63,858 nt of DNA. It comes from Nitrospirales bacterium (lineage in GTDB: Bacteria; Nitrospirota; Nitrospiria; Nitrospirales; UBA8639). Shown here one piece after another: positions 30,765 through 63,858 of the stretch. Position numbers and translations under genes: made by a program. Below the pieces are notes generated by a model. It was not told the origin of the DNA. It worked only from the letters and a program-made list of their open reading frames with translations, and ran no database searches. The stretch lies in the NCBI GenBank assembly GCA_029261255.1, contig JAJDBQ010000142.1, positions 1-63,858 of the forward strand, written 5' to 3'. How positions within the stretch are numbered: position 1 is the stretch's first letter; each line of letters starts with the position of its first letter.

Positions 30765-30944
30765 TGGAATTTTGCATAGACGTTTGCCTGAATAGGTTGC
30801 AATGAGTTCAACATTCTCATGCCAGCGTGCAGACAAATTAGGGCTGTACCTTGTGAGTGTTGAAGAGGAATGCCATAGGTAGTCATACATCATATCAGTC
30901 TTCATAAATTCTCATCTCGAGGACAGAGAGCCAAGATTCCAGAT
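30765..30944 (+). other. leader region of receptor 2 with possible 26-codon peptide
   Basis: A short frame (30802-30882, ATG to TAG) encodes 26 residues with two cysteines and no known motif. It occupies the place where receptor 1 has the zinc-ribbon gene. The leader also has GAGGACAGAG just before the terminator, as in receptor 1. It may be an attenuator leader or a separate small RNA of about 200 bases. Neither is proven. Confidence 0.35.
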
Positions 30945-30978
30945 CCCACAACTACAGACGTAGTTGTGGGTTTTTTTT
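30945..30978 (+). terminator. intrinsic terminator in the receptor 2 leader
   Basis: CCCACAACTA (30945-30954) pairs perfectly with TAGTTGTGGG (30961-30970) across a six-base loop and is followed by eight T. It ends 23 bases before the ATG of receptor 2. Position and shape match the terminator before receptor 1. Confidence 0.88.
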
Positions 30979-31001
30979 GAGTAGACGAAAGGAATGTTAG
31001 C

Positions 31002-33752: not shown

Positions 33753-33903
33753 TTCAAAGGAGAGACGTGTTCCGGAAAAGGACAGCACACTCGAAGATCG
33801 CAATCCGGAACAAGCGCTCCTCATCTGAGGTTTCAAGAAGACCATATGGCACGGCTCGTTAGAACAACGTCTCAATTTTGACGAGTCCGTCTCGTTTTCT
33901 GTT

Positions 33904-34158
33904 GTGGGCCTTCGTTACGAGGTCCCTTGCGAATGTGGCTTTGACCTATTCAGGGTTCAAGCTCAACGGTCCTTGGCCCACTTACCATTCGTATCTCTTC
34001 GAAACGAACCTTGCCAGAAATGTGGGGCACTGGCCTACCACCCAATGCAACATGAATCAACGTTACTCACGAGATTCTTTCCACAAGTTGGGCATGCATT
34101 TGCTCAGAGAATTCGTACTTGGAAAACTGTTCCTGTCCGATTCGATCAAGAGCCATAA
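33904..34158 (+). CDS. small CxC/CxxC zinc-ribbon-like protein
   Basis: From the GTG at 33904 the 84-residue frame contains VPCECGFDLFRV and EPCQKCGALAYHP, two cysteine pairs suited to a zinc ribbon. The spacing differs from the Com-like proteins at 24.7 and 41.4 kb. The frame is open upstream without a better start, so the N-terminus is uncertain. It lies between receptor 2 and a PepSY gene. No family recognised. Confidence 0.4.
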   Translation: MGLRYEVPCECGFDLFRVQAQRSLAHLPFVSLRNEPCQKCGALAYHPMQHESTLLTRFFPQVGHAFAQRIRTWKTVPVRFDQEP

Positions 34159-34278
34159 ATCTTCAGTGTCTGCTCACCATCATGAATAATGACTCGGGTG
34201 TCTCCCATGAACATGGGAATGTCACGACGTGGCTACTGATTGGTGTGTCTGTTTATCGATGTTGCGACGTGAGTAAAT

Positions 34279-36006: not shown

Positions 36007-36150
36007 GGTTTCCCAAGAAGCAGTATGGCCGATGAATATCGTTTGATTTCTTGATGTCACTCGAATGAAAGAAAATCAGCCACGAATGACATCCAAACGG
36101 TGAGGCAGAATTCTCGGGCGTGCCCGTTACTCTATTGCGCTCTATCAGTA

Positions 36151-36204
36151 TTCAGCACGTTGTGTGTGCACTGTTCCCCTGACCTGGATAAGACGTTGTG
36201 GTAA
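36151..36204 (+). pseudogene. degraded C-terminal tail of a TonB-dependent receptor
   Basis: The 17 sense codons followed by TAA read FSTLCVHCSPDLDKTLW. This aligns without gaps to FGTLRVTFSPDLDWSLW, the last residues of receptors 1 and 2, with the stop at the same place. Upstream sequence is only dimly similar (a possible F-G-P-V remnant near 36112). No start or barrel is present. It marks where a receptor gene once ended, between the PepSY gene and fecI3. The rest of the 36.0-36.6 kb gap holds nothing else I recognise. Confidence 0.6.
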
Positions 36205-36598
36205 GGAAACAGGTTAAACCAGCAGGCCTGAGGGGGAAGGGAATAAGAATCCATACGCCTTTATTCCAGCGTTGGATGACGTAACTGGCTTTACTGTCGC
36301 GAAGTTGGAGTCTGCTTGTCCCAACCTGTTTGGATAGGAAAACATGTCAAGCTTCCGCCTTGTTTTTTTTGCTCAACTGTGACTTGAGTCGCCCTTCATA
36401 CAGAGTTGCCTAATCACTCACTCGCTTTGTATCTATCACCTGATTTCTTATTACTTGCAGTCAGTTATTGATGCCTGGGATGCGGCTCCTTCATTGATGT
36501 GGTGGTGGATATTTGCAGTCACGATCTGGTGAATGAACATGGTGTTTTGACAATTGCCCACGGTATGCTCCGCTTTTGCCTTCATTCAGGTCACGATT

Positions 36599-37096
36599 AT
36601 GAGCGTCAATATTCTCTCTGTGTTTGAAAGCTATACTCAGGAGCTTCGTCGGTTTCTGACCGGACGAGTTCGGTGTGCGGTGACGGCTGAGGATCTGATG
36701 CAAGAGACATATGTGCGTCTTCAGCGGATCGAACAGCCTCATTTGATCCAAGATTTGCGGACGTATATGTTCCGCATCGCTTCGAATTTAGCGACCGATC
36801 ATCTTCGGGCGCAGGGGCGTCGTTCAGAACTCATTGATCACGGAGCGGATTGTTTGTCTATTGAAGATACCCGATCGACTCCCGATCACATGCTTCTCGC
36901 CAAAGAAGAGCTCGAGATCGTGACCGTAGCCCTGCAAGACCTGTCTCCCCTGTGTCAGCAGATATTTTTACTGAATCGGTTTGAGGGGATGAAGCACAGT
37001 GTCATTGCGGCTCGATTGGCTATCAGTCGCAGTACAGTGGAGAAGAATATTGCTAGAGCCCTGAATCACTGTCGACGTCGATTAAACCATTCGTAA
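36599..37096 (+). CDS. fecI: FecI-type ECF RNA polymerase sigma factor 3
   Basis: The 165-residue sigma factor has region 2 (AEDLMQETYVRLQRI, ASNLATDHLRAQG) and region 4 (LSPLCQQIFLLNRFEGMKHSVIAARLAISRSTVEKNI). It is clearly diverged from FecI1 and FecI2, and its recognition helix (ISRSTVEKN) differs, so it may use another promoter. I found no GTMAGG/TTCGTC site in its cassette. ATG 36599 fits the family alignment; the upstream in-frame start at 36554 would add 15 residues. Followed by fecR3 and receptor 3. Confidence 0.9.
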   Translation: MSVNILSVFESYTQELRRFLTGRVRCAVTAEDLMQETYVRLQRIEQPHLIQDLRTYMFRIASNLATDHLRAQGRRSELIDHGADCLSIEDTRSTPDHMLLAKEELEIVTVALQDLSPLCQQIFLLNRFEGMKHSVIAARLAISRSTVEKNIARALNHCRRRLNHS

Positions 37097-37212
37097 CAAT
37101 CCCGTCCGGTTTTTCCATTTCCATTCGTGTTTGCAGTAGGTCCCGGAGGTGTGATGACATCGGACGTGGATTGTCCGACAAATCATGTCGAACGATCTTC
37201 ACGGAGAGCGTT

Positions 37213-38196
37213 ATGCAGAACCAGCTGAACAATCAGGATAGGGAGGACGCCATTGAAGAGGAAGCGGTAGCCTGGATTGCCCGCTTGGCCTCAGGCGAGG
37301 TGACCCCGTTGGAGAGGAGCCAAGCTCATGAATGGTGCCAGCGTAGCCCAGAGCATGAACAGGCGTTCCAAAAGGCCAGGCGGTTATGGCTGGGAATGGA
37401 AGGCGTGCGTGAAGCAATCGCGGTACCTGAGGGTTCAACATATGTTGCTCCGGCTGCATTGAGACAGCCTGTCTGGCGAAGGTGGGCATTGGCCGCCGTG
37501 CTGGCTCTGGTCGCTCTTGGGGCAGTTCTGCAGGAACAGAGACTGGATATTTGGTTGGCGGATTATCGCACCACCACGGGCGAACAGACCAGTCTGACGT
37601 TGGCCGATGGGAGTGTGATTCATTTGAATACGAACACGGCGCTTTCGGTGGAATATACGCCTGCAATGCGACGGATTGAGCTTCTCACCGGCGAAGCACA
37701 ATTTATCGTGGCCAAAGATGAAGAGCGCCCCTTCGTGGTCCATGCCGCCGAAGGACAGACCAAAGCCATTGGAACGGAATTTGTCGTTCGAGATTACGGG
37801 CAAGGCGCTACGGTGACCTTGCTTGAAGGACTTGTCGACGTCATGGTTGATCGCTCACTCCCGGGTGAGGTTTCGCACATTCAACTCCATCCTGGTGAAC
37901 AAGTGATCTACAATGCGACTGAAGGATTAGCGCAACCCCAAGCAGCCAATCTTCAGTTGGCCACGGCTTGGCAACGAGGGCTGCTCATCTTTGAAGGGAC
38001 TACCCTGGGGACTGTGGTTGAAGAAATAAATCGATACAGAACGGGGTATGTTGTCCTGGCGACGGACGAAATCGCCGATTATCGAGTCAGTGGAGTGTTT
38101 GACCTCGACAATCTTGATCAAGCATTGATCACGATTCGCTCTCAATTACATCTTTACGCATTACGCATTACAGACTTTATTGTTTTCCTTCAGTAG
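37213..38196 (+). CDS. fecR: FecR anti-sigma/sensor protein 3
   Basis: The 327-residue protein is complete. It has a DUF4880-type N-terminal domain (EEAVAWIARLASGEVTPLER, HEQAFQKARRLW), a membrane helix (about 92-108) and a FecR domain (DYRTTTGEQTSLTLADGSVIHLN, then RPFVVHAAEGQTKAIGTEF). A C-terminal STN-like part (LGTVVEEINRYRTGYVVLA) follows. ATG 37213 has GGAGAG four bases before it. Its receptor partner should be the gene at 38.5 kb, unless that gene was replaced (see receptor 3). Confidence 0.92.
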   Translation: MQNQLNNQDREDAIEEEAVAWIARLASGEVTPLERSQAHEWCQRSPEHEQAFQKARRLWLGMEGVREAIAVPEGSTYVAPAALRQPVWRRWALAAVLALVALGAVLQEQRLDIWLADYRTTTGEQTSLTLADGSVIHLNTNTALSVEYTPAMRRIELLTGEAQFIVAKDEERPFVVHAAEGQTKAIGTEFVVRDYGQGATVTLLEGLVDVMVDRSLPGEVSHIQLHPGEQVIYNATEGLAQPQAANLQLATAWQRGLLIFEGTTLGTVVEEINRYRTGYVVLATDEIADYRVSGVFDLDNLDQALITIRSQLHLYALRITDFIVFLQ

Positions 38197-38467
38197 CGGG
38201 ACTGTAGGTCCTCCTCCAAGACGCTCTGCGGACTGGTAACAAATTCCCTCCCTGCCGTCCTGTGGACAGATTCAAGCCTTGCCATTGAGCATCTGAACAG
38301 ATGTTAGTTGGGCACAACGATTTTCATTTTTTCCATTTCATTGAAAAAAATCATCCGGTTTTTCCCCTCACCGTCGTGTTGTAGGTACAGATGAATGTGA
38401 CGGCTATCGCTCTGGTCTTAAAACTTCCCTCGTCATTGCGCAGTGTGAGGAGTAAAGGAGAATGTGC

Positions 38468-40984
38468 ATGAAAGTAAGTTGGTCAGCAATCTATGTTCCA
38501 TGTGTTGGGATGGTGTTGAACCTGATGGTCTTCGGCACGGTCATAGCCAGCGAACCCATGACAAGTTCGTCGAACAAGGACGATTCCTCTGCGTACCTTG
38601 ATGTCGCCCAAACCAATATAAAACATTTTCAGATGTTCCCCGGTCCACTTCAATCAGCCTTAACCACGTTCGCTGAACAAAGTGGGCTAGAGCTTTTTTA
38701 TCCCTCGGAATTGACTGATGGATTACAGACGAAAGGTGTATCCGGAGAACTGTCCGTTGAGCAAGCCTTGGATGAATTATTGAAGGAGACTAGCGTCATC
38801 TATGAGTTAAGTCCAAGTGGCATCATTCAATTAAAGGAATCTCAGAGTAAAAATTTAACAGACGAGAAACAAATTTCTATGAAGGAGTCTCAGGATCAAA
38901 GAGATCTAGAACAGGATCGGGAACCGGTTGTGGTGAACGCGCCAGAAGTCGTGATTAAGGATATCCGGAAGACTGGGTACGTCTCATTAGACTCAACGAC
39001 AGGGACGAAAACAGATACACCATTGATTGAGACGCCACAATCGATTTCAGTCGTTACACGCAAAGAAATGGATATACGTAGCGTGCAGACTATTAACGAA
39101 GCGTTACGCTATGTGCCTGGGGTCGTTGTTGATCAATTCGGGTTTGAACCTCGTGGATACGAATACCTATTGCTGCGCGGATTCAATGCACTGACAACTT
39201 CTAATTTTCGGGATGGGTTGAGTAATGCGGCATCTGGTTTGTTTAATGGCGCTTTTATAACAGACGCCTATTCCTTGGAACGTGTTGATGTACTGCGCGG
39301 GCCTACTTCGGTAACGTTTGGCCGTGGTGATGCAGGTGGTATTGTGAATAGTATTACTAAACGCCCTAATGCAACCCCGATACGAGAAATTGAGCTGCAG
39401 TATGGTAATTTCGATCGTAAGCGTGTCGCTGCTGATCTAGGTTACGCAAATGAAGAAGGAACGTTGATGTTTCGTTTGGTGACAAGTGCATTAGATTCGG
39501 ACACGCAAGTCAGGTATCCAAATACAGGTGGGGATCGTGCAGGTTTTAAGCGATTTCATATTGCACCATCGGTAACTTTTCGCCCTACAGTGAACACAAC
39601 GATCACATTCATGGGTGAAGTACTCAATAATCGTAGTGATGGTCTCGGTTTTTTCGCTAGTGCGCCGGATGGAAGTTTTACGAACGTATTGAGTCAGGAC
39701 CCCAGTTTTACCAAATATGACACCAATCAGTCCTCATTCACCTACCAGTTTGAGCATCATTTCAACGAGATTTTTACAGTGCGGCAGAATTTTCGTTATG
39801 CGCGGCAGAAAGGTGATTTTAATGATCTTTTCACCGGAGGGTTTGATACACCATCTCAGCCATTTCTACTGAGTCGTTCTGCATATTCTACAAGAGAGCG
39901 ATTAAGTCAAACTGTAGTCGATACACATTTGGAAGCAAAGTTTGATACAGGCCCAGTTCAACACACGATGTTGTATGGCGTGGACTGGAATAGTACTGAT
40001 GCGACCCTCGAATTCTTTGAAGGAAGTGCCGACGGTTCTGTTACTCCAGGTATTGATCTTCTCAATCCAGTGTATCCACAGAATATTCCTCGACCTGATA
40101 TTTTAGTTGAAGATTCTCAGCAGAGAATTGATCAGCTTGGTTTTTATGTTCAAGATCAGATTCGTTATGATGAGAATTGGACTTTAACTTTGAGCGGCCG
40201 TTACGACAGGGTTAAGACTACGGATACTGATCTTCTGGCCGACTCAAAAGCACGAACTCATGATAGTGCATTTACCGGGCGCGCGGGTTTAACGTATCTT
40301 TTTTCCAATGGTATAGCGCCTTATGTGAGCTATTCACAGTCATTTCTGCCACAAGCAGGTATGGATGCAAGTGGCAATACGTTCGATCCGACCCGTGGTA
40401 CTCAGTATGAAGTTGGGGTTAAGTTTCAACCGGCGAATGGAAGGGGCTTGTATACAGTGGCTTTATTTGATTTGACCAAGTCCAATGTGCAGACACCGGA
40501 TCCACGTAACCCTTTGTTCAGTGTGCAAACAGGTGAGATCAGGTCGCGCGGTGCTGAAGTTGAAGCAAAGGTAGAGCTGTTGGAGGGTTTGAATTTTATT
40601 GGTGCATTTACCTATCATGATGTCGAAGTCACCAAGAGTAATGATGGGAACGAAGGCAACTCACCGATTCAAGTGCCCACTACCATTACATCTGGCTGGT
40701 TACATTATTCTATGAGAAATCTTGGGGGGGATTGGTTGAAAGGACTCAGTCTTGGAGGTGGTATTCGCTATGTTGGCCGAGTATTTGATGATGAAGAAAA
40801 TACGAGTAGGACACCAGCGTTTACATTATATGATGCCACACTTGGTTATGACTATGGCCCTATGCTGTTTACTATCACTGCCAACAATATATTCAATAAA
40901 AAATACGTATCTTCGAGAGCCTTTGGTGGTTTTTGGTTGGGTTCGCGACGGACTGTCGTGGGCACCTTGAAGTACAGGTTCTAG
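38468..40984 (+). CDS. TonB-dependent siderophore receptor 3 (FhuA/FhuE-like) with signalling domain
   Basis: The roughly 838-residue receptor has an STN domain (PGPLQSALTTFAEQSGLELFYPSEL). The plug contains TINEALRYVPGVVVDQ and LRGPTSVTFGRGDAGGIVNSITK. The barrel ends GTLKYRF, with the usual terminal Phe, unlike receptors 1 and 2. From about 39.0 kb the DNA looks more AT-rich and uses codons such as TTA, GAT and AAT more than its neighbours. The STN part looks native. About 85 bases downstream lies the tail of a receptor-1-type gene (41061-41183), so this gene probably replaced an older receptor. ATG 38468 has AAAGGAG 7 bases upstream; ATG 38462 is too close to it. Confidence 0.9.
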   Translation: MKVSWSAIYVPCVGMVLNLMVFGTVIASEPMTSSSNKDDSSAYLDVAQTNIKHFQMFPGPLQSALTTFAEQSGLELFYPSELTDGLQTKGVSGELSVEQALDELLKETSVIYELSPSGIIQLKESQSKNLTDEKQISMKESQDQRDLEQDREPVVVNAPEVVIKDIRKTGYVSLDSTTGTKTDTPLIETPQSISVVTRKEMDIRSVQTINEALRYVPGVVVDQFGFEPRGYEYLLLRGFNALTTSNFRDGLSNAASGLFNGAFITDAYSLERVDVLRGPTSVTFGRGDAGGIVNSITKRPNATPIREIELQYGNFDRKRVAADLGYANEEGTLMFRLVTSALDSDTQVRYPNTGGDRAGFKRFHIAPSVTFRPTVNTTITFMGEVLNNRSDGLGFFASAPDGSFTNVLSQDPSFTKYDTNQSSFTYQFEHHFNEIFTVRQNFRYARQKGDFNDLFTGGFDTPSQPFLLSRSAYSTRERLSQTVVDTHLEAKFDTGPVQHTMLYGVDWNSTDATLEFFEGSADGSVTPGIDLLNPVYPQNIPRPDILVEDSQQRIDQLGFYVQDQIRYDENWTLTLSGRYDRVKTTDTDLLADSKARTHDSAFTGRAGLTYLFSNGIAPYVSYSQSFLPQAGMDASGNTFDPTRGTQYEVGVKFQPANGRGLYTVALFDLTKSNVQTPDPRNPLFSVQTGEIRSRGAEVEAKVELLEGLNFIGAFTYHDVEVTKSNDGNEGNSPIQVPTTITSGWLHYSMRNLGGDWLKGLSLGGGIRYVGRVFDDEENTSRTPAFTLYDATLGYDYGPMLFTITANNIFNKKYVSSRAFGGFWLGSRRTVVGTLKYRF

Positions 40985-53991: not shown

Positions 53992-54077
53992 CGTCTCACG
54001 CAAACAGTTCATTCATACATATTCAATGTCCATTTGTCTTACTGCCTGATGAACATGCTCATTTGCCAAAACTCATA

Positions 54078-54108
54078 GGGGGTCTGTTGAAAAAATCCGC
54101 CAGCGCCA
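54078..54108. repeat. half-copy of the palindromic intergenic repeat
   Basis: GGTCTGTTGAAAAAATCC and CGCCAGCG resemble the left arm of the repeat at 2.06 and 10.80 kb. The right arm with CTTTTTTGAAC is not found downstream, so this copy is truncated. The rest of the 54.0-54.45 kb gap has no gene or other feature I can support. Confidence 0.4.
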
Positions 54109-54455
54109 TTCCGATGGTCGGAGGTCTCCATCAGCGATATACTCGACGTGCGGTGTGAGGACTTGATGCCCGTTGGAAGATGATGGATGAATAAATAAAG
54201 GACAATCCCCTGAATCCAGAGAATTCCGAGTTTTCACACAGCCTCGGCCACAAGCAGACATCTAAGTCCCAGTTAGATTAAGCTATTTTGACTGCTCGAT
54301 TTGCCCACTTGATCCAAGCCTGACTTCCGGATTCGGATGATACCCGGTTAGCGTTTCGTGGTCTTCGATGCTTATTTTTTGCTGAAAGGGCAGATCCGTG
54401 GCACAGTATCCGGAAACTCTATAATCACTGGTTATGCCGTCATAAAGGAAATTCA

Positions 54456-54920
54456 ATGAGAAAATTTTATATTAGAAAGGCACAAGTTGACGATCTACCA
54501 ACAATGCAAGAAATCGCCAGACGTACTATAGACAAGTGCTACCGATCATTTTTGGGAGATGAGGGAGTCGATTGGTTCATTAATAGCGGCGAATCCGACA
54601 AAGAGCTCGAAAAGCATATATCCAATTGCGACGTACTGCTACGAGAAGAGAATATTTTGGCCTTCACCATCTACTTCGACGATCTTATCCACCTAATGAT
54701 GGTTGATGTAGATCTTCAACGCACAGGCATTGGGTCACAGCTTCTTGCGCATTCTGAGCAACGTTTGTTCGCCAGCGGGAAGACGGTCATTCGACTTGAG
54801 ACTTTTGAAGGGAGTGAGCAGGCAACCGGCTTCTACCTGAAGAATGGTTGGTCCTTGACCAGAAAGCAGGAAGATGAGAAGCACGGTTTCATTAGGCTGT
54901 TTTTAGAGAAAGGTGCATAA
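54456..54920 (+). CDS. GNAT-family N-acetyltransferase
   Basis: The 154-residue product has the GNAT fold with the acetyl-CoA loop motif A as DLQRTGIGSQLLAHSEQRLF and a C-terminal YLKNGWSLTRKQ. It is an acetyl-CoA-dependent acetyltransferase of unknown substrate. It lies in an accessory region, with no partner. Its DNA looks unlike the iron cluster in style (more AAA, GAA, ATT codons). Confidence 0.8.
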   Translation: MRKFYIRKAQVDDLPTMQEIARRTIDKCYRSFLGDEGVDWFINSGESDKELEKHISNCDVLLREENILAFTIYFDDLIHLMMVDVDLQRTGIGSQLLAHSEQRLFASGKTVIRLETFEGSEQATGFYLKNGWSLTRKQEDEKHGFIRLFLEKGA

Positions 54921-55111
54921 TAATTCCATGCACTCTGACGGGAATTCCGCTGCGCTCCATTCCTGCCGGTGCTGGCCATGTTATCCACGCTTCGGTATGT
55001 CCGCTGTGGGTCGTGAACGGTCATGTCTGCAGTCGGCCAAAAGTGGACTGTTAACGCGCGAGCTGCACTGAAATTGTCTGTATAGTCGAATCTATGCTTT
55101 AACCATAGTTG

Positions 55112-55681
55112 TTAGAGCGCAGAACTTTCGATTTCATATTCGTACTCTTCCTCGGGTTTGCCCTGTTTTCGGAAACCACAAGGATTTTTGCCCGTATATC
55201 GAAACCCTAACTTTTCTATCACTCTTTTGCTTCGTATATTCCAAATAGCATGTGCAGTGACAAGCTTGGAGGCGTGAAGCGCCGAAAATCCGAAATCCAA
55301 TACGGCACGTGCAGCCTCAGTCGCATACCCCTGTCCCCAGAATTCAGGATGGATCCAAAACCCAACATTCCACACGCGCAACGCATTCGTCTGCTTGATT
55401 GCCACGCGACCTATGGGAGTGCTGGCATCAACGAGCTCGACCGTATAGGTAAACAAGGAACCCTCTTTCCACAGGCTAAGACTCTCTTGGGTTCTATCAA
55501 CAAGTTGACCTCTTGTCTTAGGACGATCCCAAATCATTCCGTCGTTAAATCCATCAAAGCGAGTTGCAGACCAAGTCATTTCAACATCTGACAAAGCCAC
55601 TGCTCGTAAGCATAGCCGTTCTGTTATCAGTCTTGTATCTACGGAAATCTCTCTCATGAAAGGTATGCTTTTGTCAGCCAT
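55112..55681 (-). CDS. GNAT-family N-acetyltransferase, RimJ/RimL type
   Basis: The 189-residue product shows RimJ/RimL features: TERLCLRAVALSDVEM near the N-terminus, WIHPEFWGQGYATEAARAVLDFGF as the acetyl-CoA motif, and IEKLGFRYTG. Its start overlaps the end of the alpha/beta hydrolase gene by eight bases, so it is the last gene of a three-gene minus-strand operon. The substrate could be a small molecule or a protein N-terminus. Confidence 0.85.
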   Translation of the reverse strand: MADKSIPFMREISVDTRLITERLCLRAVALSDVEMTWSATRFDGFNDGMIWDRPKTRGQLVDRTQESLSLWKEGSLFTYTVELVDASTPIGRVAIKQTNALRVWNVGFWIHPEFWGQGYATEAARAVLDFGFSALHASKLVTAHAIWNIRSKRVIEKLGFRYTGKNPCGFRKQGKPEEEYEYEIESSAL

Positions 55682-56567
55682 CGGCCAACTGCTGTCCCTC
55701 TTCTTGGCTCTGTGCTCTTAAAAAATCAAGAAGGATGTCAGACCACTGAGTGGGGTTTTCAAGATGCGCAAAATGGCCACATTTTTCAAATATTTTGACG
55801 CGAATATTCTTCCCCTGTGCGATATCCGGAACCGGAAAGCACATATCGTGTTGTCCGTGGAGAACAAGAACCGGGAAATCCTGCCCCATCAGCCAGGGCG
55901 TGTAATTCGTGTGATCGGGTGCGAGTAAACCGGCTTGCCAGGCCATTCCCCACTCACCGGAGAAGTCCACGTTTTGCACGATCTTCTCAATCTTACCGAC
56001 TTTTTCCAGATCATAAACATTCAGTGGCAGCTGTTTGATCGCTAGTGTTTTCGTTTTTTCAGCCAGTGAGAGATCTGAGCTGGCGAACACATCCTGCATT
56101 GAGGGCGTACTGTCCGGTCGAATCTGTTGTTCGGGTGATATCGTTATTTCTCTTTTCGGTGAGTCTACGAGGAGGGTCGAAGCGAGGACCAGAGCCTTCA
56201 CTCTGTGAGGATACTTTTTAGCAAAACGCAGCAGGATCCTTCCACCAAATGAAAATCCCAGTAACCACGCCTTCGAAATACCTTCTTTATCTAGGAGTTG
56301 TACTAAATCTTCAACAACCTGCTCAATGCTATATTTTTCTGGAATACCGAATTTGGTTGACCCACCGCAACCCCGGATATCAAACAACAGCACGGGATAA
56401 TGATCGGCAATCATTTCAAACGGAGGGATCAGGTAATGATGATCCCAATCGGGTCCGCCGTGAATGACAAGCAAAGGGTTTTTACCGTTTCCCAATCTTC
56501 GCACTAACAGTTCTACTTCATCTAGCTGGACTTTCTCACGCCCATTGGTTTTTCCAGTGCTCATCAT
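55674..56567 (-). CDS. alpha/beta hydrolase (proline iminopeptidase-like)
   Basis: From ATG 56567 the 297-residue product has an oxyanion-loop HGGPDWDHH, the nucleophile elbow GFSFGG, an acid in HGQHDM and the catalytic histidine in CGHFAHLE. The HGGPG-like motif suggests the prolyl iminopeptidase branch, but substrate assignment is not secure. The start overlaps the stop of a 73-codon gene (ATGA), favouring this start over the longer frame beginning at 56612. Confidence 0.85.
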   Translation of the reverse strand: MMSTGKTNGREKVQLDEVELLVRRLGNGKNPLLVIHGGPDWDHHYLIPPFEMIADHYPVLLFDIRGCGGSTKFGIPEKYSIEQVVEDLVQLLDKEGISKAWLLGFSFGGRILLRFAKKYPHRVKALVLASTLLVDSPKREITISPEQQIRPDSTPSMQDVFASSDLSLAEKTKTLAIKQLPLNVYDLEKVGKIEKIVQNVDFSGEWGMAWQAGLLAPDHTNYTPWLMGQDFPVLVLHGQHDMCFPVPDIAQGKNIRVKIFEKCGHFAHLENPTQWSDILLDFLRAQSQEEGQQLADG

Positions 56568-56785
56568 TGTTCGATCATACGTTCGGGAATATATAACCAA
56601 TGTGAACGCCAACTTAGATCTTCTCCCGTGCCTTCAGGTCCTCCCCAGCTATGTAAAAACAAATCGTTCAGATCCGTTGTTACGAGACACGACTGCTGTT
56701 CTCCGTCATTCTTCAGAAAATTCACCAGTACACCATGATCGTTCAATACGATCGTCCGTGTTGCGATTGCACAGGGTTTATCCAT
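56564..56785 (-). CDS. small hypothetical protein coupled to alpha/beta hydrolase
   Basis: The 73-residue frame (ATG at 56785) contains ATRTIVLNDHGVLVNFLKND and LNDLFLHSWGGPEGTG. It ends with a TGA that overlaps the hydrolase ATG. Codon use and the exact four-base overlap argue that it is real. No family recognised. It heads the operon with the hydrolase and the RimJ-like acetyltransferase. Confidence 0.5.
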   Translation of the reverse strand: MDKPCAIATRTIVLNDHGVLVNFLKNDGEQQSCLVTTDLNDLFLHSWGGPEGTGEDLSWRSHWLYIPERMIEQ

Positions 56786-57239
56786 ATCTACATCATATCA
56801 ACTTAGCGCAAGACATAAACCTGGGTCGAAGGCTGACATCTAAGATGATGCGGCTGTCAGAGTCGCCGAATGCGCCTCATTTCGTCCATATCTCAGCTGT
56901 ATCGAGTTTGATGGCAAGCACTCTGACAAAGGCGAAGGCTAATGAAGAGCCCCGATCTCATCTATGGCTGAATGGTCTTTCCGTTGTTATTCGCGTGCTT
57001 AATTGAGGAGCTGATCGGAAATGAGGATTACATCCCTGTGAACTATGTAAAGTCCACTAAGAATTAGAGCAGCTGATTCATAGTCAGTGGGCCTGCGGTA
57101 GAAAAGTCCTTGTCAGTGAAGCTGTTGAGGGGGCACGCTATGTCGTTAAACCTGTTTTGTGACCTGTTCGGACTGCCTGGGTTAGGACGAGAAGAAGGTC
57201 AGATGAGTTTTTTGACCATACGAGTCCTGTTCGGCGCGT
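56786..57239. other. intergenic region with a possible 35-codon gene
   Basis: The one frame with a good ribosome site (GAGGGGG, 57127-57133) runs from ATG 57140 to TAA 57247 on the plus strand. It encodes about 35 hydrophobic residues, starts MSLNLFCDLFGLPGLG, and overlaps the stop of the convergent MBL gene. It may be a remnant or a small peptide. Nothing else recognised here. Confidence 0.3.
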
Positions 57240-58019
57240 TTAGCTAATAGTCCAAGTGAGTGAGCCATCATTTCGAGTCGATAGAACGTAACGTGTAGTT
57301 CCGTTAAAAGAAATTCCTTGTGCATGGTTTGCATAAGTCTGCGCCATCTCCTGGGTTGCATGTTGAATATTACTATCTGAAAAAATTACAACCTTTGGAC
57401 TGCAAACGTCGAATACTTCCCTGCAATAGCCATTCTCTCTACCATGATGTGATGCAATAAAAATATTGACGCCCTCCAGTTCTGATACAAAAGATTCACT
57501 CCGAAGCAAAACTTCCCAGCCATCCTTTTCTAAATCACCTGGAATGATAAATTTATTTGCGCCACATTCCAGAAAAGTAACAAGGCTGATATTGTTGGTG
57601 TCAGAGAAATCTATTCCATACGAGTTATTAAATGTTTCAAAACGCACATCAGGGAATTCTGGTGCAGGGTTTAGTGCCCCCCCAGTATAGGAACCAATCA
57701 TAGCCAGCATAGATTCCATGGCAGAACTTATCGGGCCAGTTTGACGTTTTAATGCTCTAAGCTGTTCAACCGAAATACTTTTGTTTCTATACATTGACCT
57801 GAGTTTAACTTTGTCTCGCAAATTGGGGAGGTCGCTAATATGATCCTCGTCATAATTTGAAACAAAAAAATAATCGACCTCAAATATGCCCTGTGATGGG
57901 AGAAATTCGGAAGGTCGGCAACCATCTTGATGCCCGCAGTCCCAAAGCATGACCTTCCCATTATGATGTATCAAGCTCACGCAGAGGCCATGTCCTACGT
58001 TATGAATGGTTAACTTCAT
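57240..58019 (-). CDS. metallo-beta-lactamase fold protein with altered metal motif
   Basis: The 259-residue protein is an MBL-only version of the ComEC type. Its first metal motif is NYDEDH (55-60) instead of HxDxDH, so the leading histidine is Asn55. Other ligands remain: PGDLE (Asp162), ASHHGRE (His191, His192) and a FSDS segment. The ATG overlaps the stop of the upstream membrane protein gene by four bases, so the pair is coupled. The DNA is AT-rich compared with the iron cluster, suggesting transfer. The substrate could be a nucleotide or nucleic acid. Confidence 0.75.
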   Translation of the reverse strand: MKLTIHNVGHGLCVSLIHHNGKVMLWDCGHQDGCRPSEFLPSQGIFEVDYFFVSNYDEDHISDLPNLRDKVKLRSMYRNKSISVEQLRALKRQTGPISSAMESMLAMIGSYTGGALNPAPEFPDVRFETFNNSYGIDFSDTNNISLVTFLECGANKFIIPGDLEKDGWEVLLRSESFVSELEGVNIFIASHHGRENGYCREVFDVCSPKVVIFSDSNIQHATQEMAQTYANHAQGISFNGTTRYVLSTRNDGSLTWTIS

Positions 58020-58549
58020 TGTGGACTATCCGTGTCATGCTGTTCTTGGATGTTTTGGTGTTTAATCGTTTTCGCTATCCTTTTCCTCATAAAATTAGTC
58101 TGTTTTCTGTATGAATAAATAAACAAAACAGCCAGAAAGCAAATGGCTATGGTGAATGAATATTCGGAAGGTATGGGAAAAATATTGGCTAGAAATTCTA
58201 ATGCTTTTAGAAACAATGCACACATGCATACCGAAATCAATGTTCGGTACATGTTGTTTGATTCAGATAGCACCTTTAGATCGTTGTCAATTTTGGAAGC
58301 TGCTACGAAATCTTCATAAGGCTCAAATTGAATGATATCAATCCACTTGAGGAAGGGTTCGATTAAAAGGGACCCGATACGGCTGATTATTATCCCATAG
58401 AAATAATAGAGAAAAGCACCAATGACGACGTCATTGTGAAGCAAGGAGTACGAAGTTAAGAGCTCTCCGATCGCTGCAAATAATACCCCCGGAAATAAAT
58501 AGTTAAAGATGTTGTAAGAGGACAGCTTATCTAATAGATCTTTCATCAT
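58016..58549 (-). CDS. small membrane protein coupled to the MBL gene
   Basis: The 177-residue product has an N-terminal amphipathic piece (DKLSSYNIFNYLFPGVLFAA) and probably four helices in two pairs (about 14-35, 40-62; about 103-122, 128-147). A cytoplasmic acidic loop separates the pairs, and the tail is polar and basic. No enzymatic motif is seen. Two-pair topologies of this sort are common for membrane-acting effectors in defence pairs, but I cannot name a family. It is the first gene of the coupled pair. Confidence 0.65.
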   Translation of the reverse strand: MMKDLLDKLSSYNIFNYLFPGVLFAAIGELLTSYSLLHNDVVIGAFLYYFYGIIISRIGSLLIEPFLKWIDIIQFEPYEDFVAASKIDNDLKVLSESNNMYRTLISVCMCALFLKALEFLANIFPIPSEYSFTIAICFLAVLFIYSYRKQTNFMRKRIAKTIKHQNIQEQHDTDSPQ

Positions 58550-58789
58550 ATTTTTTGTCCTCCGAAATACTGAATTATCTTAGGGCTCCAACTTCTAATG
58601 AATCAAAATGTCGAAGCGTCACTAACCTTTGGTAGCTTGAAGAACATCATGGAATTTTCATACCCTATGAAATACGGTCAATTAAGTAAACTTGATATGG
58701 GTTCAAGACTATTTAGTGCGCCCAAATTTCCATCCACGCATAAGATAGCTGCATTACGAGAGTGAAGTTTTGATGCTCTGACAAGTTTA

Positions 58790-59686
58790 CTAACTGGCTG
58801 CCTCTAGGTAAGGCTCGATCTCATCACGATTGGCGAGAACGATTTGTTGAGCTTGTGGCGATGTACTGTTTTTCTTTTCTAATCCGAGCCGCTTGAGCAG
58901 GTAAAACAGCAAGGCCTGCTTCGACTCGATTATCACCTTCCCATTCATCATGCCGTAATCGAGTTCAATCGCATGCTTTTGCTCTATGGGCAAATCTGGG
59001 TTGGGCTTTAATGTCAATCTTAGGACGGTGTGCCAAGCACTATCTTGTGCTGAGTCGCTGTCTGAGGGCGACTCATTTGCGATTTGAAGTATTCGAGCAA
59101 ATACAAAATCTCTGAAGTCTTGATGTTCGTGACAGTAGGCTCGGGTATGCCAGCGAAACCCATCATAGGCAATTGCATGTGGGCTAATGGTTCTCTCTGT
59201 GGCATTGGGACGATTCAAGGATTGGTAAGTGATCTCGATCGCACGACCATAACGAATGGCCTGCAGGACGCGAAAGAGAATTGATTTATTGATCTTTCGG
59301 CTTGGGGAAAGCACGGCTGCAAACGGCGGGTACCATCCCAAAAAACTCATTTCCTGCGACATCATTCCTGACTGCACGGCAAGTAGCTGATTCAAACAAT
59401 GACTTGAATCAGGTGCAGCCATGATTGGAGCGAATTTATCTGTAACCACATACACTTTCTTGCTTTGGTTGTACTCGACATTTTCTGGGGCTATTTCCAT
59501 ATACCGCGCGAGGTCCAGCGATGCTTGGGGAATCGAGATTCTAAAAAACCCCGTTAGATCCGAGCGGTTTATTCGACCCTCCCAAAGCAATCTGAAATCA
59601 ATAAACTCCAGACGACGGTCTTGCCCCCATCGTGTCACGCGGCCATTTTTTTCGAGTATTTCCTTTGAATTTGTAGGTTTTTTCAT
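58790..59686 (-). CDS. WYL-domain transcriptional regulator, BrxR/CapW-like
   Basis: The 298-residue product has an N-terminal winged helix (RLEFIDFRLLWEGRINRSDL, then FRISIPQASLDLARYM) typical of BrxR/CapW regulators. A WYL domain follows (SPHAIAYDGFRWHTRAYC, then FRDFVFARI) and a C-terminal WCX-type extension. Known members repress BREX and CBASS operons and are thought to release on a nucleic-acid or nucleotide signal. It is divergent from the MBL and E2-E1-JAB operon, with a 309-base gap to the MBL start, and is the likely repressor of it. Confidence 0.88.
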   Translation of the reverse strand: MKKPTNSKEILEKNGRVTRWGQDRRLEFIDFRLLWEGRINRSDLTGFFRISIPQASLDLARYMEIAPENVEYNQSKKVYVVTDKFAPIMAAPDSSHCLNQLLAVQSGMMSQEMSFLGWYPPFAAVLSPSRKINKSILFRVLQAIRYGRAIEITYQSLNRPNATERTISPHAIAYDGFRWHTRAYCHEHQDFRDFVFARILQIANESPSDSDSAQDSAWHTVLRLTLKPNPDLPIEQKHAIELDYGMMNGKVIIESKQALLFYLLKRLGLEKKNSTSPQAQQIVLANRDEIEPYLEAAS

Positions 59687-59719
59687 GTATTGCCTTAGGT
59701 ATTAGTATTCAGTATAAAA

Positions 59720-59753
59720 ACTAGATTGACATAATTACTAGTCGCAATGTAAC
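59720..59753 (+). promoter_or_regulatory. candidate promoter and operator of the MBL/E2-E1-JAB operon
   Basis: TTGACA (59726-59731), 16 bases, then TGTAAC (59748-59753) is a plausible housekeeping promoter. An inverted repeat ACTAG-N13-CTAGT (59720-59742) covers the -35 hexamer, a good place for repression by the divergent WYL protein. The -10 is weak. Confidence 0.4.
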
Positions 59754-59795
59754 CTAAGTGAGGCTGGTTAAACAACTATGTCAGAAGGAGCTCGG

Positions 59796-59870
59796 ATGGC
59801 TAAGAATCCCCATGATTTAGAGACGATTGCCAGTCCTGTGGAGTCTAGAGAATCAATTCCAAGACCGTAG
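59796..59870 (+). CDS. possible 24-residue peptide at the head of the operon
   Basis: An ATG (59796) with a perfect AAGGAG five bases upstream opens a frame of 24 codons (MAKNPHDLETIASPVESR...) ending in TAG at 59868. It is too short for a domain. It may be a leader peptide or the broken start of a lost gene, since 125 bases without a clear frame follow before the MBL gene. Confidence 0.35.
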   Translation: MAKNPHDLETIASPVESRESIPRP

Positions 59871-59995
59871 GAAGACAGCTGAGGGCAATGGGTATCCCGA
59901 CAACGGGCATTTCATGGTTCAGCAAGCTGATCCCAGTTTCTGCAAAGTTGTACGTCAGGAGCTGAGGAAACAGGAAAATAGAATGGAGACCAAAA

Positions 59996-61108
59996 ATGGC
60001 TTTAAACAAATTGACTCATTTTCCAGTTGGGAACGGTGACACCACATTGATCGAGGTGGACAAGAAAACCATCCTGACAGACGTGAACTACCGTATGGAT
60101 GCGGCAGACCCGAATGAGGACGAATACGACTTTGCCCCAGATCTGCAAAAGACCTGCCTCGTGTCGTCTAAGAACTATCGACTGTCGGTTTTCGCTCTTA
60201 CTCACCCGGACGTGGACCACCTGCGTGGCTTCACGGAGCTCTTTTACTGCGGCGACCCGGACGTGTACAAGAATCGAAAAAGTGGTGACGAGAAATTAAT
60301 CCTGATCGAGGAGATGTGGATTAGTCCATATGCCGAGGCCCCTAATTACGAAACGGACGACTCGAAACTGATGTTTAAAGAGATTGATCGCCGTCTCGCT
60401 CTTCGGGGGACAACGAGTGGCGAAAAAGACGGTAATCGGATTAAGACGCTGGATACTAATGGGGACCATAAGGCCGGCTCGTTGACCCAAAACATTTCTT
60501 GGGAAGTACTTGCGCCAACGCCAGAGGAAGCAGATATTCAGGACGAGGAAGATTCCAAAGAACATGCTAGCAGCAATGACAGTAGTCTTGTGATTCGATG
60601 GACGTTGAAAGTGGATGGTGGGGTGACACGAGTTCTGATCGCAGGTGACGCTACAGTCGAGGTTTGGGATCGTATCTGGAATGACTATAAGAAAAATACT
60701 GACAGGCTCAAGAGACACATTTTACTCTCTGCCCACCATTGCTCACGCGGTGTGATGGCACGTAAGGAGGAAGACGATCGCTACGAGTTTTCTGATGAAG
60801 CTCTCAGTGCACTGGACCAGTTCGACGGCGACGGATTTGTTGTGTCTAGCAGCAAGAAGATCAAGCACAACGACGATAATCCTCCGAGTTGGGATGCCAA
60901 GCAGAAATATCTGGGCATGTTAAAAAAAGCTAACGAAAATGGTCACGAGAGTCGTTTCCTTAATCCTGATACCCATAAAGATGGTAAGTCAGAGCCGGTC
61001 GTGTTTGACTTAACCAAGTCCGGTCCCATATTGAAGACGGCAGGCACAGCCTCTGCCGAAAAAAGATTCTTGGGAGCTGGAGCTGTCATTTCTCCAACAT
61101 ACGGCTAA
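59996..61108 (+). CDS. metallo-beta-lactamase protein of a ubiquitin-like conjugation operon
   Basis: The 370-residue protein has a complete MBL metal site: THPDVDH (His70, Asp72, Asp74, His75), AGD (Asp218) and SAHHCS (His247, His248). The fold lacks the extra domains of the 11.1-kb protein. The last 25 residues (after TAGTASAEKRF) are low in complexity and end VISPTYG, a free C-terminal glycine. Stop and next start are three bases apart. MBL genes next to E2-E1-JAB fusions have been noted in comparative genomics of prokaryotic ubiquitin-like systems. The substrate is unknown. A role in phage defence is inferred. Confidence 0.85.
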   Translation: MALNKLTHFPVGNGDTTLIEVDKKTILTDVNYRMDAADPNEDEYDFAPDLQKTCLVSSKNYRLSVFALTHPDVDHLRGFTELFYCGDPDVYKNRKSGDEKLILIEEMWISPYAEAPNYETDDSKLMFKEIDRRLALRGTTSGEKDGNRIKTLDTNGDHKAGSLTQNISWEVLAPTPEEADIQDEEDSKEHASSNDSSLVIRWTLKVDGGVTRVLIAGDATVEVWDRIWNDYKKNTDRLKRHILLSAHHCSRGVMARKEEDDRYEFSDEALSALDQFDGDGFVVSSSKKIKHNDDNPPSWDAKQKYLGMLKKANENGHESRFLNPDTHKDGKSEPVVFDLTKSGPILKTAGTASAEKRFLGAGAVISPTYG

Positions 61109-61111
61109 TCT

Positions 61112-63409
61112 GTGTCGTGGATCGCCTCTCAGGCCGAGAGCCATCTCATACAGCCAGCAGACTTACCAGGCTACTTGCGCTCATTACACTCTGTTGTCAA
61201 CGCATGGCCCGCTATCGTCCAAGGTAGCGTTCAGTGCTTCCAGACTGAACGTGCCGACTGCAAATATGCCATTTGTTTCCAATTCAAATGGGACATACCC
61301 GCAGAATACATCGATTTCAGAATTCAACGTCCAGAGGCCATTTCTCTGTGGTTTAAAAAGGACGCTTCACCAGATGATGCGCCAAAAATTCGAGCTGATC
61401 GTAGCGACTTCCCGCTCGACCTTGCGCATTTAAATAGCATAAGTCAAGGTGAGCCAGCATCCCTTTGCCTTGCAAGAGAGTCTCTAAATGCAATCTACGC
61501 ACGTCGTGGAATCAGAGGTATACTAGAGCGGTTAAATACATGGTTGCGCGATGCCGCAGGGAGCAAACTTGACCATGATGGCTGGGAACCTACCCCGCGT
61601 TTATGTAGTCGTTCAGCAACACTCGACATCGGTGCATTTCAGCGATTCGCTCTCAGTTCGAAGCGTGAAAAACAGGGTTTTTCAGGCGGCTTCGCTCTGG
61701 CAGTTTTTGACGAACATACACCGGGGAACACTCGCCTTCATTTCCGGCTTCTTGCAAAGAGAAAGGAACTCGCAGACTTAAAGGACAAAACCCAAATCGC
61801 CGCCTTGAGGATCCAACGCGAGGTATATCCCGCCCACTGGTTCAGTGTTTGGGGTCCTCAAAATGAACCAACTGATTATCGATTTTGGGAATCTGTGTCA
61901 GATCGTGCTTCCTTGTTGAGGTATGCCAAAAATGCAGGCTGTAAGCAAATGGTGAAACTGATTCTAGATACAAGCCTGGAATTGGCCGATACAGGCGGCG
62001 TATATGCATTTGTCCTTCTTATAGGAACCTGGCGTCCAATACCTTTGATTGGAACGATTCCCGGCCTCGCTCAAGGTGAAGCAGCCAATCTTGAATTAGC
62101 GGGATTTGCGATTGAGCTGAAAAAGAAAAGCGGGCAAGGACATCGAGTAGACTCTGTTCGTGAGATCCAGCTGGTCTCTGAAGCCAATAGTCAGAACTTG
62201 AATCGATTTGCAGGATATCTGGAACAGCCCGGAGCTACTGTCTTAATTGGGTTGGGGGCGCTAGGATCAAAATTGGCTGAGCACATTGTGCGAGAAGGCG
62301 CCCCATCCTTGAAGGTCGTTGATCATGACCTACTAGCACCACACAACCTTGCGCGGCATTCCCTTACCTCGGAATCAATAAACTTACCCAAGGCGACAGA
62401 ACTGAGCAAACGATTGCTGTCCATAAATCCGTCCTGCCAGATAGAAGCATTTCGCAAGAACTTTGCCCTTCTCCCGACCGATGCAATAAAAAATGAAATA
62501 TGCGGGAGTGCTAAAGGTATCATCGTAGACGCAACAGCCGACATTTCCGTCATGCGGCGATTGTGCCGATCAGATAATGTCATGCGGGTTGCTAAAGTTG
62601 AATTGGCTCACGGTGGTCGCTTGGGGATTCTTTACAACGAAGGAAAAGGTAGGCTCCCGCGTATTGATGATCTCAAAGCCCTTATTCCAACCCTTGGACA
62701 ATCTGAGCAGGAGATTAAAGATTGGCTCTGTAGTGACGATGACTACAGCCTGAATACAGGTATAGGTTGTGCTTCGGCTTCGATGCAAATGTCTGATAGC
62801 CGTGTGGCCATTCATGCAGCAAACTTTATGGCTAGCCTCGGGAAAATTATCCGTTTCGGAGATCACCCACCTGGCATTGGAATCGCGGTTTTGTCCGAAA
62901 GTGGGCACCTCAAGGGGTGGCGGTGGATCGAGGAGGAGCCTCCTGAAGTGATGTTCACCAATGACGATGAAACCTTCTGGACGGTACGGATTCGAAAATC
63001 GATCCGCAAAGAAATCGAAAAGGAGCTCCAGAGGAACAAGCCCTTGGAGGCAGGAGGATATCTATATGGAGCCTATGACCTAAGGCTTTGCACGATATAC
63101 ATTACTGCGGCGATCCCAATACAGCCGCGCCTTGCGACCACGTCCCGAATTCGACTTCCGGAAGCTGGGAGAAGTGGTCGGGAGCTTGAGCTAAGGACAT
63201 TTTCAGGTGATCAGATTGACTTACTTGGGACGTGGCATACTCATCCCTGTGGAAGCCCAGACCCATCGCCAAGCGACATTGTACAGTTTAATGAATATAA
63301 GGGATCCCATGCCGAAACTCCCAATCCCCATCTCATGTTGATTCTTTCTGAGACAGGAATGACACTGAAGCTCACATTGCCCAAGGCGTGGAAGGGGAAT
63401 GAGCAATGA
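61112..63409 (+). CDS. E2-like / E1-like / JAMM-peptidase fusion protein
   Basis: The 765-residue protein joins three ubiquitin-pathway activities. Residues 1-165 look like a bacterial E2, with candidate catalytic Cys119 in ASLCLARES after a proline-rich strand region. Residues about 180-365 are of unknown fold. Residues about 372-600 are a ThiF/E1 adenylation domain: GLGALGS, VVDHDLLAPHNLARH (Asp404, Asp406, Asn412, Arg415), Lys427, and candidate catalytic Cys553 in GIGCASAS. Residues about 615-765 are a JAMM peptidase with Glu646 and HTHP-x6-SPSD (His709, His711, Asp722), complete. GTG start. No separate ubiquitin-like protein or CD-NTase gene is visible nearby. Confidence 0.88.
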   Translation: MSWIASQAESHLIQPADLPGYLRSLHSVVNAWPAIVQGSVQCFQTERADCKYAICFQFKWDIPAEYIDFRIQRPEAISLWFKKDASPDDAPKIRADRSDFPLDLAHLNSISQGEPASLCLARESLNAIYARRGIRGILERLNTWLRDAAGSKLDHDGWEPTPRLCSRSATLDIGAFQRFALSSKREKQGFSGGFALAVFDEHTPGNTRLHFRLLAKRKELADLKDKTQIAALRIQREVYPAHWFSVWGPQNEPTDYRFWESVSDRASLLRYAKNAGCKQMVKLILDTSLELADTGGVYAFVLLIGTWRPIPLIGTIPGLAQGEAANLELAGFAIELKKKSGQGHRVDSVREIQLVSEANSQNLNRFAGYLEQPGATVLIGLGALGSKLAEHIVREGAPSLKVVDHDLLAPHNLARHSLTSESINLPKATELSKRLLSINPSCQIEAFRKNFALLPTDAIKNEICGSAKGIIVDATADISVMRRLCRSDNVMRVAKVELAHGGRLGILYNEGKGRLPRIDDLKALIPTLGQSEQEIKDWLCSDDDYSLNTGIGCASASMQMSDSRVAIHAANFMASLGKIIRFGDHPPGIGIAVLSESGHLKGWRWIEEEPPEVMFTNDDETFWTVRIRKSIRKEIEKELQRNKPLEAGGYLYGAYDLRLCTIYITAAIPIQPRLATTSRIRLPEAGRSGRELELRTFSGDQIDLLGTWHTHPCGSPDPSPSDIVQFNEYKGSHAETPNPHLMLILSETGMTLKLTLPKAWKGNEQ

Positions 63410-63453
63410 AGGATTTTGTCTACATTGGCAACTTACTGAAAATTAGATGCTGA
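63406..63453 (+). pseudogene. truncated third cistron of the conjugation operon
   Basis: An ATG overlapping the stop of the fusion gene (ATGA) opens a frame reading MKDFVYIGNLLKIRC and then TGA. The overlap is the usual sign of a coupled gene, yet it ends after 15 codons. The following 200 bases to the tRNA scar show no continuation I can recognise in other frames. The third gene may have been lost by recombination. Confidence 0.45.
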
Positions 63454-63661
63454 ACATACAATTCCCTTGGCTACGATCCATGGAATTTTAATGAACCAAG
63501 TTGACGGTTCGATGTACAGACGAAGCCCGTATGGACAAAAAGCTCAACCCCCGCTGATGAAATACGGGTAAACCGAGCAGCCCGATTTCCAGAAACAGGT
63601 CTAAAACAGACTTTGCCCCGGACGGGGTACTGGCGCGGATGACTTAAGTTGTTGATTTAAT
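63454..63661. other. non-coding tail before the tRNA scar
   Basis: About 200 bases. I see no gene and no strong hairpin. The stretch GCCCCGGACGGGG (about 63613-63625) is a short GC-rich inverted repeat without a T run. Confidence 0.3.
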
Positions 63662-63718
<57 letters not shown>

Positions 63719-63858
63719 AATATACTCAATATTAGTTTTGTTCAGGTAGATATTTTTATGGTCTCTATAAAGGTTGAGCATGACTAGGGAACTTGTGAGC
63801 AGCGGACGGGGAAGTGGGGTAACGGGCACCATCTTAGTCACGATTTATGAGGGCCTAA
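63719..63858. other. sequence beyond the tRNA scar, incomplete
   Basis: The last 140 bases start AT-rich and show no gene start that can be followed before the window ends. This would be the left end of the integrated element. Confidence 0.3.

Follow-up and report, generated by a model that had tools for sequence, protein, structure and literature searches.

Organization of the locus

The DNA analysed here (the window) is one whole contig of 63,858 nucleotides (JAJDBQ010000142.1), part of a 4.36 Mb assembly of a Nitrospirales-type genome. Near its end lies a two-gene operon that encodes a metallo-beta-lactamase (MBL)-fold protein and a single polypeptide combining E2, E1 and JAMM domains, with a regulatory gene transcribed away from it. 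The main features are listed below.

58790..59686, minus strand: WYL regulator of the CapW/BrxR family, 298 amino acids, divergent from the operon (structure matches and Pfam WYL)
59687..59995, no strand: divergent intergenic region with a weak inverted repeat, a possible operator
59996..61108, plus strand: 6A-MBL metallo-beta-lactamase-fold protein, 370 amino acids, active-site residues intact, tail ...SPTYG (NCBIfam NF058524, alignment of 58 proteins, AlphaFold2)
61046..61105, plus strand: last 20 codons of the MBL, for a tail predicted to be flexible, with Gly370 as its final residue and proposed site of conjugation (tail comparison, AlphaFold2)
61112..63409, plus strand: 6A-MBL Cap2_3, the E2-E1-JAMM fusion, 765 amino acids, GTG start (NCBIfam NF058523, Pfam, catalytic residues, fold match)

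Exactly three bases (61109-61111) separate the stop codon of the MBL gene from the GTG start of the fusion gene, confirming the coordinates of the tight operon proposed in an earlier reading of this sequence (the original prediction). The contig stops at 63858, 449 bp past the fusion gene, and any genes further downstream are hence out of view; no plus strand frame of at least 60 amino acids follows position 63409 in the window. The closest named relative at the locus is that of Nitrospirales bacterium NPIRA04 (L033), whose fusion protein is 84% identical, and here, too, no plus strand frame of at least 60 amino acids lies between the fusion gene and an integrase gene at 11602. A Pfam search of the eight genes between 54456 and 63409 found no CD-NTase and no ubiquitin-like (beta-grasp) protein, as originally predicted (the whole genome was not searched for the latter). 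The only protease domain recognized by Pfam was the JAMM domain in the fusion; a trypsin-like protease was not found. Rfam gave no match across 54000-63858.

A divergent member of the 6A-MBL system

Both operon proteins exceed the curated cut-offs of NCBIfam models placed under the name "anti-phage 6A-MBL system". The fusion scores 393.5 bits with NF058523 (6A-MBL_cap2_3, cut-off 320), and the MBL 269.7 bits with NF058524 (6A-MBL_enzyme, cut-off 220). The database search that the original prediction had proposed for these two proteins thus assigns the locus, by profile, to a named system as a divergent member, and this name replaces the earlier statement that no function had been assigned to an operon of this form. 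Since the system already has a name, the novelty of the locus itself is modest. The window operon shares with the 6A-MBL system both proteins in the same order, but differs in the lower score of its fusion, in its TYG tail and in that the contig ends without a third gene. The family model of the fusion gave some signal in 10 of 14 control genomes and exceeded the cut-off in none of the 14.

The name 6A-MBL was not found in the literature searched. We infer that it derives from row 6a in Table 1 of Iyer et al. (2006; PMC1779556), which describes a triple E2-E1-JAB protein with an adjoining metallo-beta-lactamase in most operons.

Relatives of the operon

An earlier scan with a single protein as query returned no loci; a scan based on an alignment returned 41. 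Further loci were taken from the phylum of the window and from other genomes, from 11 of the 325 plasmid records in which the fusion had a match, and from viral contigs, which gave 60 fusions of at least 700 amino acids. Shorter fusions were dropped (L060, L068, L070, L072, L105, L134-L137, and the weak rows L106-L117, the only weak ThiF-only rows examined), and L073 is without a fusion. The set contains some redundancy: L101 equals L058, L102 equals L043, and L064 has the same fusion as L065. From L006, only the C-terminal portion of an MBL entered the comparison, and the L133 fusion is truncated at the end. Records were also read for 8 of 247 plasmids matching an Escherichia coli MBL of the family (see below) and for 2 of 37 from E. 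coli.

The MBL gene stands directly upstream of the fusion gene in 58 of the 60 loci; the two misses, L045 and L051, have a fusion and no adjacent MBL. In L045, the sequence upstream of the fusion (start 2630) holds a frame which, judged by eye, is acetate-kinase-like and runs into PPRAG, the result of either a deletion or an assembly chimera. The gene after the fusion varies: a patatin phospholipase in 27 loci, a second MBL-fold protein of M48B type (MBL2) with a small protein in 15, a gene with hydrophobic stretches in 5, another gene in 2, nothing found in 9, and the end of the sequence in 2. The small protein beside MBL2 is hydrophobic as judged by eye. Profiles confirmed the patatin in L003 and the M48B type in L037 and L067. 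For L097 the script reported no such gene, which is wrong; by annotation, a gene follows the fusion, with four hydrophobic stretches, and then one resembling the M48B-type MBL. The patatins compared below (n = 27) include those of L060 (short fusion) and L073 (no fusion found).

Upstream of the operon, the script called a CapW-like regulator in 10 loci, an ImmA/IrrE type in 7 and neither in 32, and the sequence was cut in 11. A CapW-like regulator divergent from the operon is therefore found in 10 of the 49 loci with readable upstream sequence, and the ImmA/IrrE type in 7 of 49. Pfam confirmed three of the seven ImmA/IrrE assignments, each with an adjoining helix-turn-helix gene. Two WYL regulators were missed by this count, in L063 (Pfam WYL) and in L094 (WYL by annotation). 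The co-occurrence of the three genes, which had been put forward as a check, thus holds for MBL and fusion almost throughout and for the regulator in a minority of loci.

The E2-E1-JAMM fusion protein

Pfam recognizes three domains in the fusion: Prok-E2_A (residues 71-164, 2.4e-17), ThiF (377-478, 3.7e-15) and Prok-JAB (630-738, 1.8e-8). The catalytic residues named in the original prediction, Cys119 for E2, Asp406 and Cys553 for E1, and Glu646 with HTHP-x6-SPSD for JAMM, all lie at the predicted positions. Invariant in the 59 aligned fusions (59/59) are C119, G380, G382, G385, D404, R415, K427, C553, E646, H709, H711, S719 and D722, while D406 and D473 are each kept in 54 of 59. With both operon profiles over their cut-offs and the catalytic residues conserved, the possibility that the fusion is a chance product or an artefact was ruled out.

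AlphaFold2 models were built from alignments of the window and the loci of the alignment-based scan only (33 MBLs, 35 fusions). The fusion model reaches a mean pLDDT of 65.5 and a pTM of 0.65. In the E2 region, a helix (20-31) and strands (41-45, 52-58, 75-81 and 92-95) precede Cys119, which is followed by a helix (125-149), with pLDDT values of 62-90 in this block; the order of these predicted elements around Cys119 is E2-like, as the original prediction expected. The middle region, of which it proposed to model residues 180-365, is without a confident fold, with pLDDT mostly below 50 at residues 154-355. By E-value, the complex of Cap2 and its CD-NTase (7to3, Cap2-CdnD02; 6.1e-12) is the best match in the Protein Data Bank (PDB); the overall TM-score is 0.23, a low value such as can be expected with a poorly predicted middle. 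Other top matches are mostly E1 domains.

The MBL-fold protein and its C-terminal glycine

Pfam gave no match for the window MBL. Its putative active-site residues are conserved in the alignment, with H70, D72, D74 and H75 in 57 of 58 proteins (one gap) and D218, H247 and H248 in all 58. Profile comparison points to kinship with Avs1a (2.7e-8), RTasMBL (5.4e-8) and LmuA (7.4e-8). The AlphaFold2 model (mean pLDDT 65, pTM 0.74) matches phosphorylcholine esterase best (1wra, TM-score 0.52 by query length) and then RNase J. The protein is probably a hydrolase of the ComEC/Avs1a type, acting as a DNase or a nucleotide hydrolase. MBL nucleases of the Hachiman and AVAST systems are described as gated DNases in PMC12799240.

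The C-terminus of the MBL carries a conserved glycine. It is the final residue in 42 of the 58 MBLs adjacent to a fusion, and the remaining 16 have a motif glycine followed by 1-8 further residues. The motif contexts (n = 58) are RAG in 44, HG in 8, TYG in 4 (with Gly370 of the window among them), GYG in 1 and TQG in 1. At 90% identity the 58 sequences cluster into 47 groups, and at 70% into 19. In an unanchored MAFFT alignment of 33 MBLs the glycine occupies a single invariant column (33/33). By comparison, a terminal glycine is present in 2 of 59 fusions and 0 of 27 patatins. All four glycine codons are in use at the motif (first 54 MBLs: GGC 22, GGT 13, GGA 10, GGG 9). The NCBIfam model of the MBL ends at residue 343 of 370 in the window protein, i.e. 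before the tail, which AlphaFold2 leaves unfolded (residues 350-370, pLDDT below 50). Among eight further intact MBLs (L139-L143 and L145-L147), seven end in RAG or carry it at most 4 residues from the C-terminus, some with identical tails.

The residues after the glycine in the 16 extended proteins are diverse, e.g. S, KSV, VTFDNV, SKPI, VSNQ and RK, with RG after RAG in L056. Four MBLs (L052, L053, L054, L071) have a second RAG past the first. In the enterobacterial alleles PRAG is preserved via synonymous changes, and the residues that follow vary between VSNQ, VINQ and VKG. Residues beyond a conserved glycine are the pattern of ubiquitin precursors.

A terminal glycine is also found in the M48B-like MBL2, in 13 of 13 proteins (L037, L043-L045, L048-L051, L053, L057, L058, L067, L071). 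It was considered as a second conjugation site and dropped, as selection on the protein could not be separated from the overlap with the next gene.

Regulator and intergenic region

The original prediction of a divergent CapW/BrxR-like regulator agrees with the structure matches (7tb5, 1.4e-71; CapW 7tb6, 4.1e-67; BrxR 7t8k, 9.5e-45), of which the best spans residues 3-293 of 298 and is thus full-length, and with the Pfam WYL domain (3e-16). The intergenic region holds a weak inverted repeat (59727-59736 and 59774-59783; 10-nucleotide arms, 90% complementary) as a possible operator. One arm is identical in L033, and the other has one change. Promoter-like sites in the region showed no excess over shuffled sequence. 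CapW continues to repress until it meets single-stranded DNA, according to PMC13373217, and by analogy we infer that the regulator of the window may repress the operon in the same, single-stranded DNA-responsive manner.

Proposed mechanism and alternative explanations

Type II CBASS provides the closest mechanistic parallel. According to PMC10097602, Cap2 conjugates the CD-NTase via a C-terminal glycine or alanine and Cap3 deconjugates it; Cap3 also cleaves after the C-terminus of the CD-NTase in a tandem fusion. In type II CBASS with full-length Cap2 and Cap3, the CD-NTases end in glycine or alanine with variable preceding residues, while the CD-NTases of other CBASS architectures are without such C-terminal conservation (PMC10097602). 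Judged from the sequences, the glycine rule of the MBL parallels this Gly/Ala rule.

The window operon shares with type II CBASS the E1, E2 and JAMM domains and a protein with a conserved C-terminal glycine (here the MBL, Gly370) as partner of the Cap2-type protein, as well as the CapW-type regulator and, in relatives, the patatin. CapW-type regulators and patatins are features of some CBASS operons. It differs in having an MBL in place of the CD-NTase, in joining E2, E1 and JAMM in one polypeptide, and in that no cyclic nucleotide synthase was seen. Other systems are less similar. The MBL nucleases of HamM, Avs1, Lamassu and DRT (PMC12799240) have a related MBL, by profile only, but the window has an E2-E1-JAMM fusion and no trypsin-like protease. 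The ubiquitin-like Bil and Bub operons have E1, E2 and JAMM domains, but among the window genes scanned there is no ubiquitin-like gene.

The domains, the intact catalytic residues, the near-strict pairing of MBL and fusion and the C-terminal glycine rule are read directly from the sequences. This data may suggest that the MBL is conjugated by the neighbouring fusion, that the JAMM domain trims the MBL and reverses this conjugation, and that the MBL is gated thereby. We consider it likely that the 6A-MBL operon works like type II CBASS with the MBL-fold protein replacing the CD-NTase as the conjugated protein. With somewhat less assurance, we favour the more specific view that the MBL is a second ubiquitin-like conjugate without a ubiquitin fold, with the fused E1-E2 activating its glycine, the fused JAMM trimming some precursors, and conjugation gating the hydrolase. 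A 2025 review names Cap2 as the sole known case of a non-beta-grasp substrate. The MBL is not stated to be a conjugated protein in the literature searched, which did not cover the original 6A-MBL description. The original prediction of protein conjugation controlling an MBL hydrolase is thus consistent with the sequences in outline; the conserved C-terminal glycine of the MBL itself was absent from that account.

In such a mechanism, the CapW-type regulator would repress the divergent operon and release it on DNA damage or phage infection, as is known for CapW relatives. The glycine of the flexible MBL tail would then be activated by the E1 domain of the fusion and passed to Cys119 of E2, and the MBL would become attached to other proteins or to its partners in a complex. 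JAMM, in the same polypeptide, may trim the residues after the MBL glycine and remove the MBL from its targets. Conjugation would switch MBL activity, as for the CD-NTase, resulting in harm to the phage or the infected cell. Relatives would add a patatin phospholipase, or MBL2 and the small hydrophobic protein. Since the contig ends without a dedicated effector gene after the fusion, the effector in the window would be the MBL itself or a divergent pair of neighbouring genes, M48A/M48B (see below).

If true, a single polypeptide would hold the full write-and-erase machinery for one neighbouring substrate gene. The glycine rule would name a concrete second candidate beyond the Cap2 substrate, whose precursor forms would in themselves put the JAMM domain to the test, and it would give a role to the MBL recorded beside E2-E1-JAB fusions in 2006. 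The two-gene operon of E. coli would offer a tractable model.

Several observations weigh against this interpretation. A MAFFT alignment of all 58 MBLs did not bring the divergent tails into one column, and the assignment of the glycine in these tails hence depends on the motif, whose classes were defined after inspection of the tails. As the 16 extended tails are rich in glycine, alanine and serine, their glycine counts for less than a terminal one. The TYG tail of the window is unlike the commonest form, RAG, and the MBL of L147 ends in KVGFGAE, without a clear motif, though it exceeds the family cut-off. With an esterase (1wra) ranking above RNase J as fold match, DNase activity of the MBL is only likely. 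In MBL2, finally, the terminal glycine is always encoded by GGA within an ATGA overlap (GGA-TGA) with the next start. This last case, together with the 1- or 4-base overlaps between genes in many of the operons, raises the possibility that the conserved glycine of the MBL itself is a by-product of its stop codon overlapping the start or the ribosome-binding site of the fusion gene. The MBLs of the 6A family, however, use all four glycine codons, and the glycine persists in operons without such an overlap (spacings of +3 in the window, +6 in L035 and +9 in L093) and where further residues come after it. Fusions often overlap the next gene as well, yet only the 2 of 59 mentioned end in glycine. 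We therefore regard this explanation as highly improbable.

Another possibility is that the fusion conjugates a different protein, e.g. a ubiquitin-like one encoded elsewhere, with the MBL being a separate effector or signal hydrolase whose glycine is otherwise used. Such a partner could lie outside the contig, and MBL-fold proteins act as effectors without conjugation in other systems (PMC12799240). We consider this rather unlikely in view of the nearly strict pairing of fusion and MBL (58/60), of the lack of a ubiquitin-like gene among the eight genes scanned, and of a glycine rule that applies to the MBL and not to fusions or patatins. Doubt may also be raised about the biological purpose: the operon may serve a general response to DNA damage or plasmid competition instead of anti-phage defence. 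CapW-type regulators respond to DNA damage, 140 of the 247 plasmid records matching the E. coli MBL are conjugative, related Bub operons are without shown phage protection according to PMC13373217, and the only basis found here for the label "anti-phage" is the NCBIfam name. Nevertheless, PDC-M48 defence candidates adjoin the operon, restriction-modification genes adjoin relatives, and the nearest mechanism, type II CBASS, is anti-phage, so that a general response in place of defence has a small probability in our view.

Distribution and mobility

Among 295 genomes from the phylum of the window, the fusion exceeds its cut-off in five and the MBL in four of the same five. In the fifth (G246, contig 1, locus L006), the MBL gene is broken in two, with some 1.2 kb between the pieces, and falls below the cut-off. 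A minus strand frame between the two pieces is transposase-like by eye. Within the same order, the window fusion scores 393.5 bits versus 660-670 bits in the four other genomes that pass. A tree of 59 fusions places the window in a set of 14 on a branch supported at 100/100, together with L033, three Bacteroidota rows and the rows with HG tails; the position of the window and L033 inside this set is weakly supported (84/69). The set is separate from the four patatin-bearing rows of the window's own order, and the two kinds of operon in this order were probably acquired separately.

The set of CapW-like regulator, MBL and fusion has matches in 31 of the 5426 complete genomes of E. coli, in 29 of them with at least 80% of the query; 24 of the locations are on plasmids and 16 on chromosomes. 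Both proteins of one set of this kind (L096) exceed the same NCBIfam cut-offs. In six E. coli strains (AMSCJX02, M1, M3, CEC15, EcPF16, XJW9B263), the set occurs on chromosome-sized and on plasmid-sized records with equal identity to the query, and a tyrosine recombinase lies close upstream in L096, L139 and L140, the last on plasmid pSE11-2 of E. coli strain SE11. These observations point to recent movement between replicons. The plasmids of L144 and L148 carry the operon in broken pieces, per annotation. No match to the fusion was found in phage records.

Probable island boundary and neighbouring genes

Further features of the window are as follows.

57240..58019, minus strand: PDC-M48B, second MBL-fold protein, neighbour (PADLOC PDLC04674, 1.9e-58)
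58016..58549, minus strand: PDC-M48A small protein, neighbour, possibly in the module (PADLOC PDLC04670, 2.1e-62)
63662..63717, minus strand: tRNA-Lys gene fragment (3' part), probably the attachment site at which the island ends (similarity to L033 stops here)

DNA similarity between the window and L033 ends at the tRNA-Lys piece in both (window 63720, L033 10609), and L033 has a tyrosine integrase at 11602-12777, about 1 kb beyond this piece. ARAGORN called no tRNA gene at 63662-63717. Pattern matching that allowed up to 3 mismatches did not detect the piece in L033; the diverged copy was recovered by blastn. In the same assembly, contig C100 carries a complete tRNA-Lys and contig C122 another partial copy. 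Based on this comparison, the fragment is probably the attachment site of an integrated island and marks its boundary.

PDC-M48A and PDC-M48B stand side by side on the minus strand upstream of the operon and are listed by PADLOC as a candidate defence pair. The M48B protein of the window is 38% identical to the MBL2 of L037, and M48B relatives are the third gene in other 6A-MBL operons. M48A-like proteins were found in the window and L033 only, among 46 loci, and M48B in L033 is a short remnant. This rarity and the remnant rule out the pair as a fixed operon partner; it is a possible effector module only.

Elsewhere in the window, a 503-amino acid MBL-fold protein (11107-12618, plus strand) matches the 6A-MBL model weakly (E-value 3.7e-4), with Lactamase_B below its cut-off. 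Three consecutive sets of sigma factor, FecR-like and TonB-dependent receptor genes, as judged by eye, occupy about 22825-40984 (plus strand).

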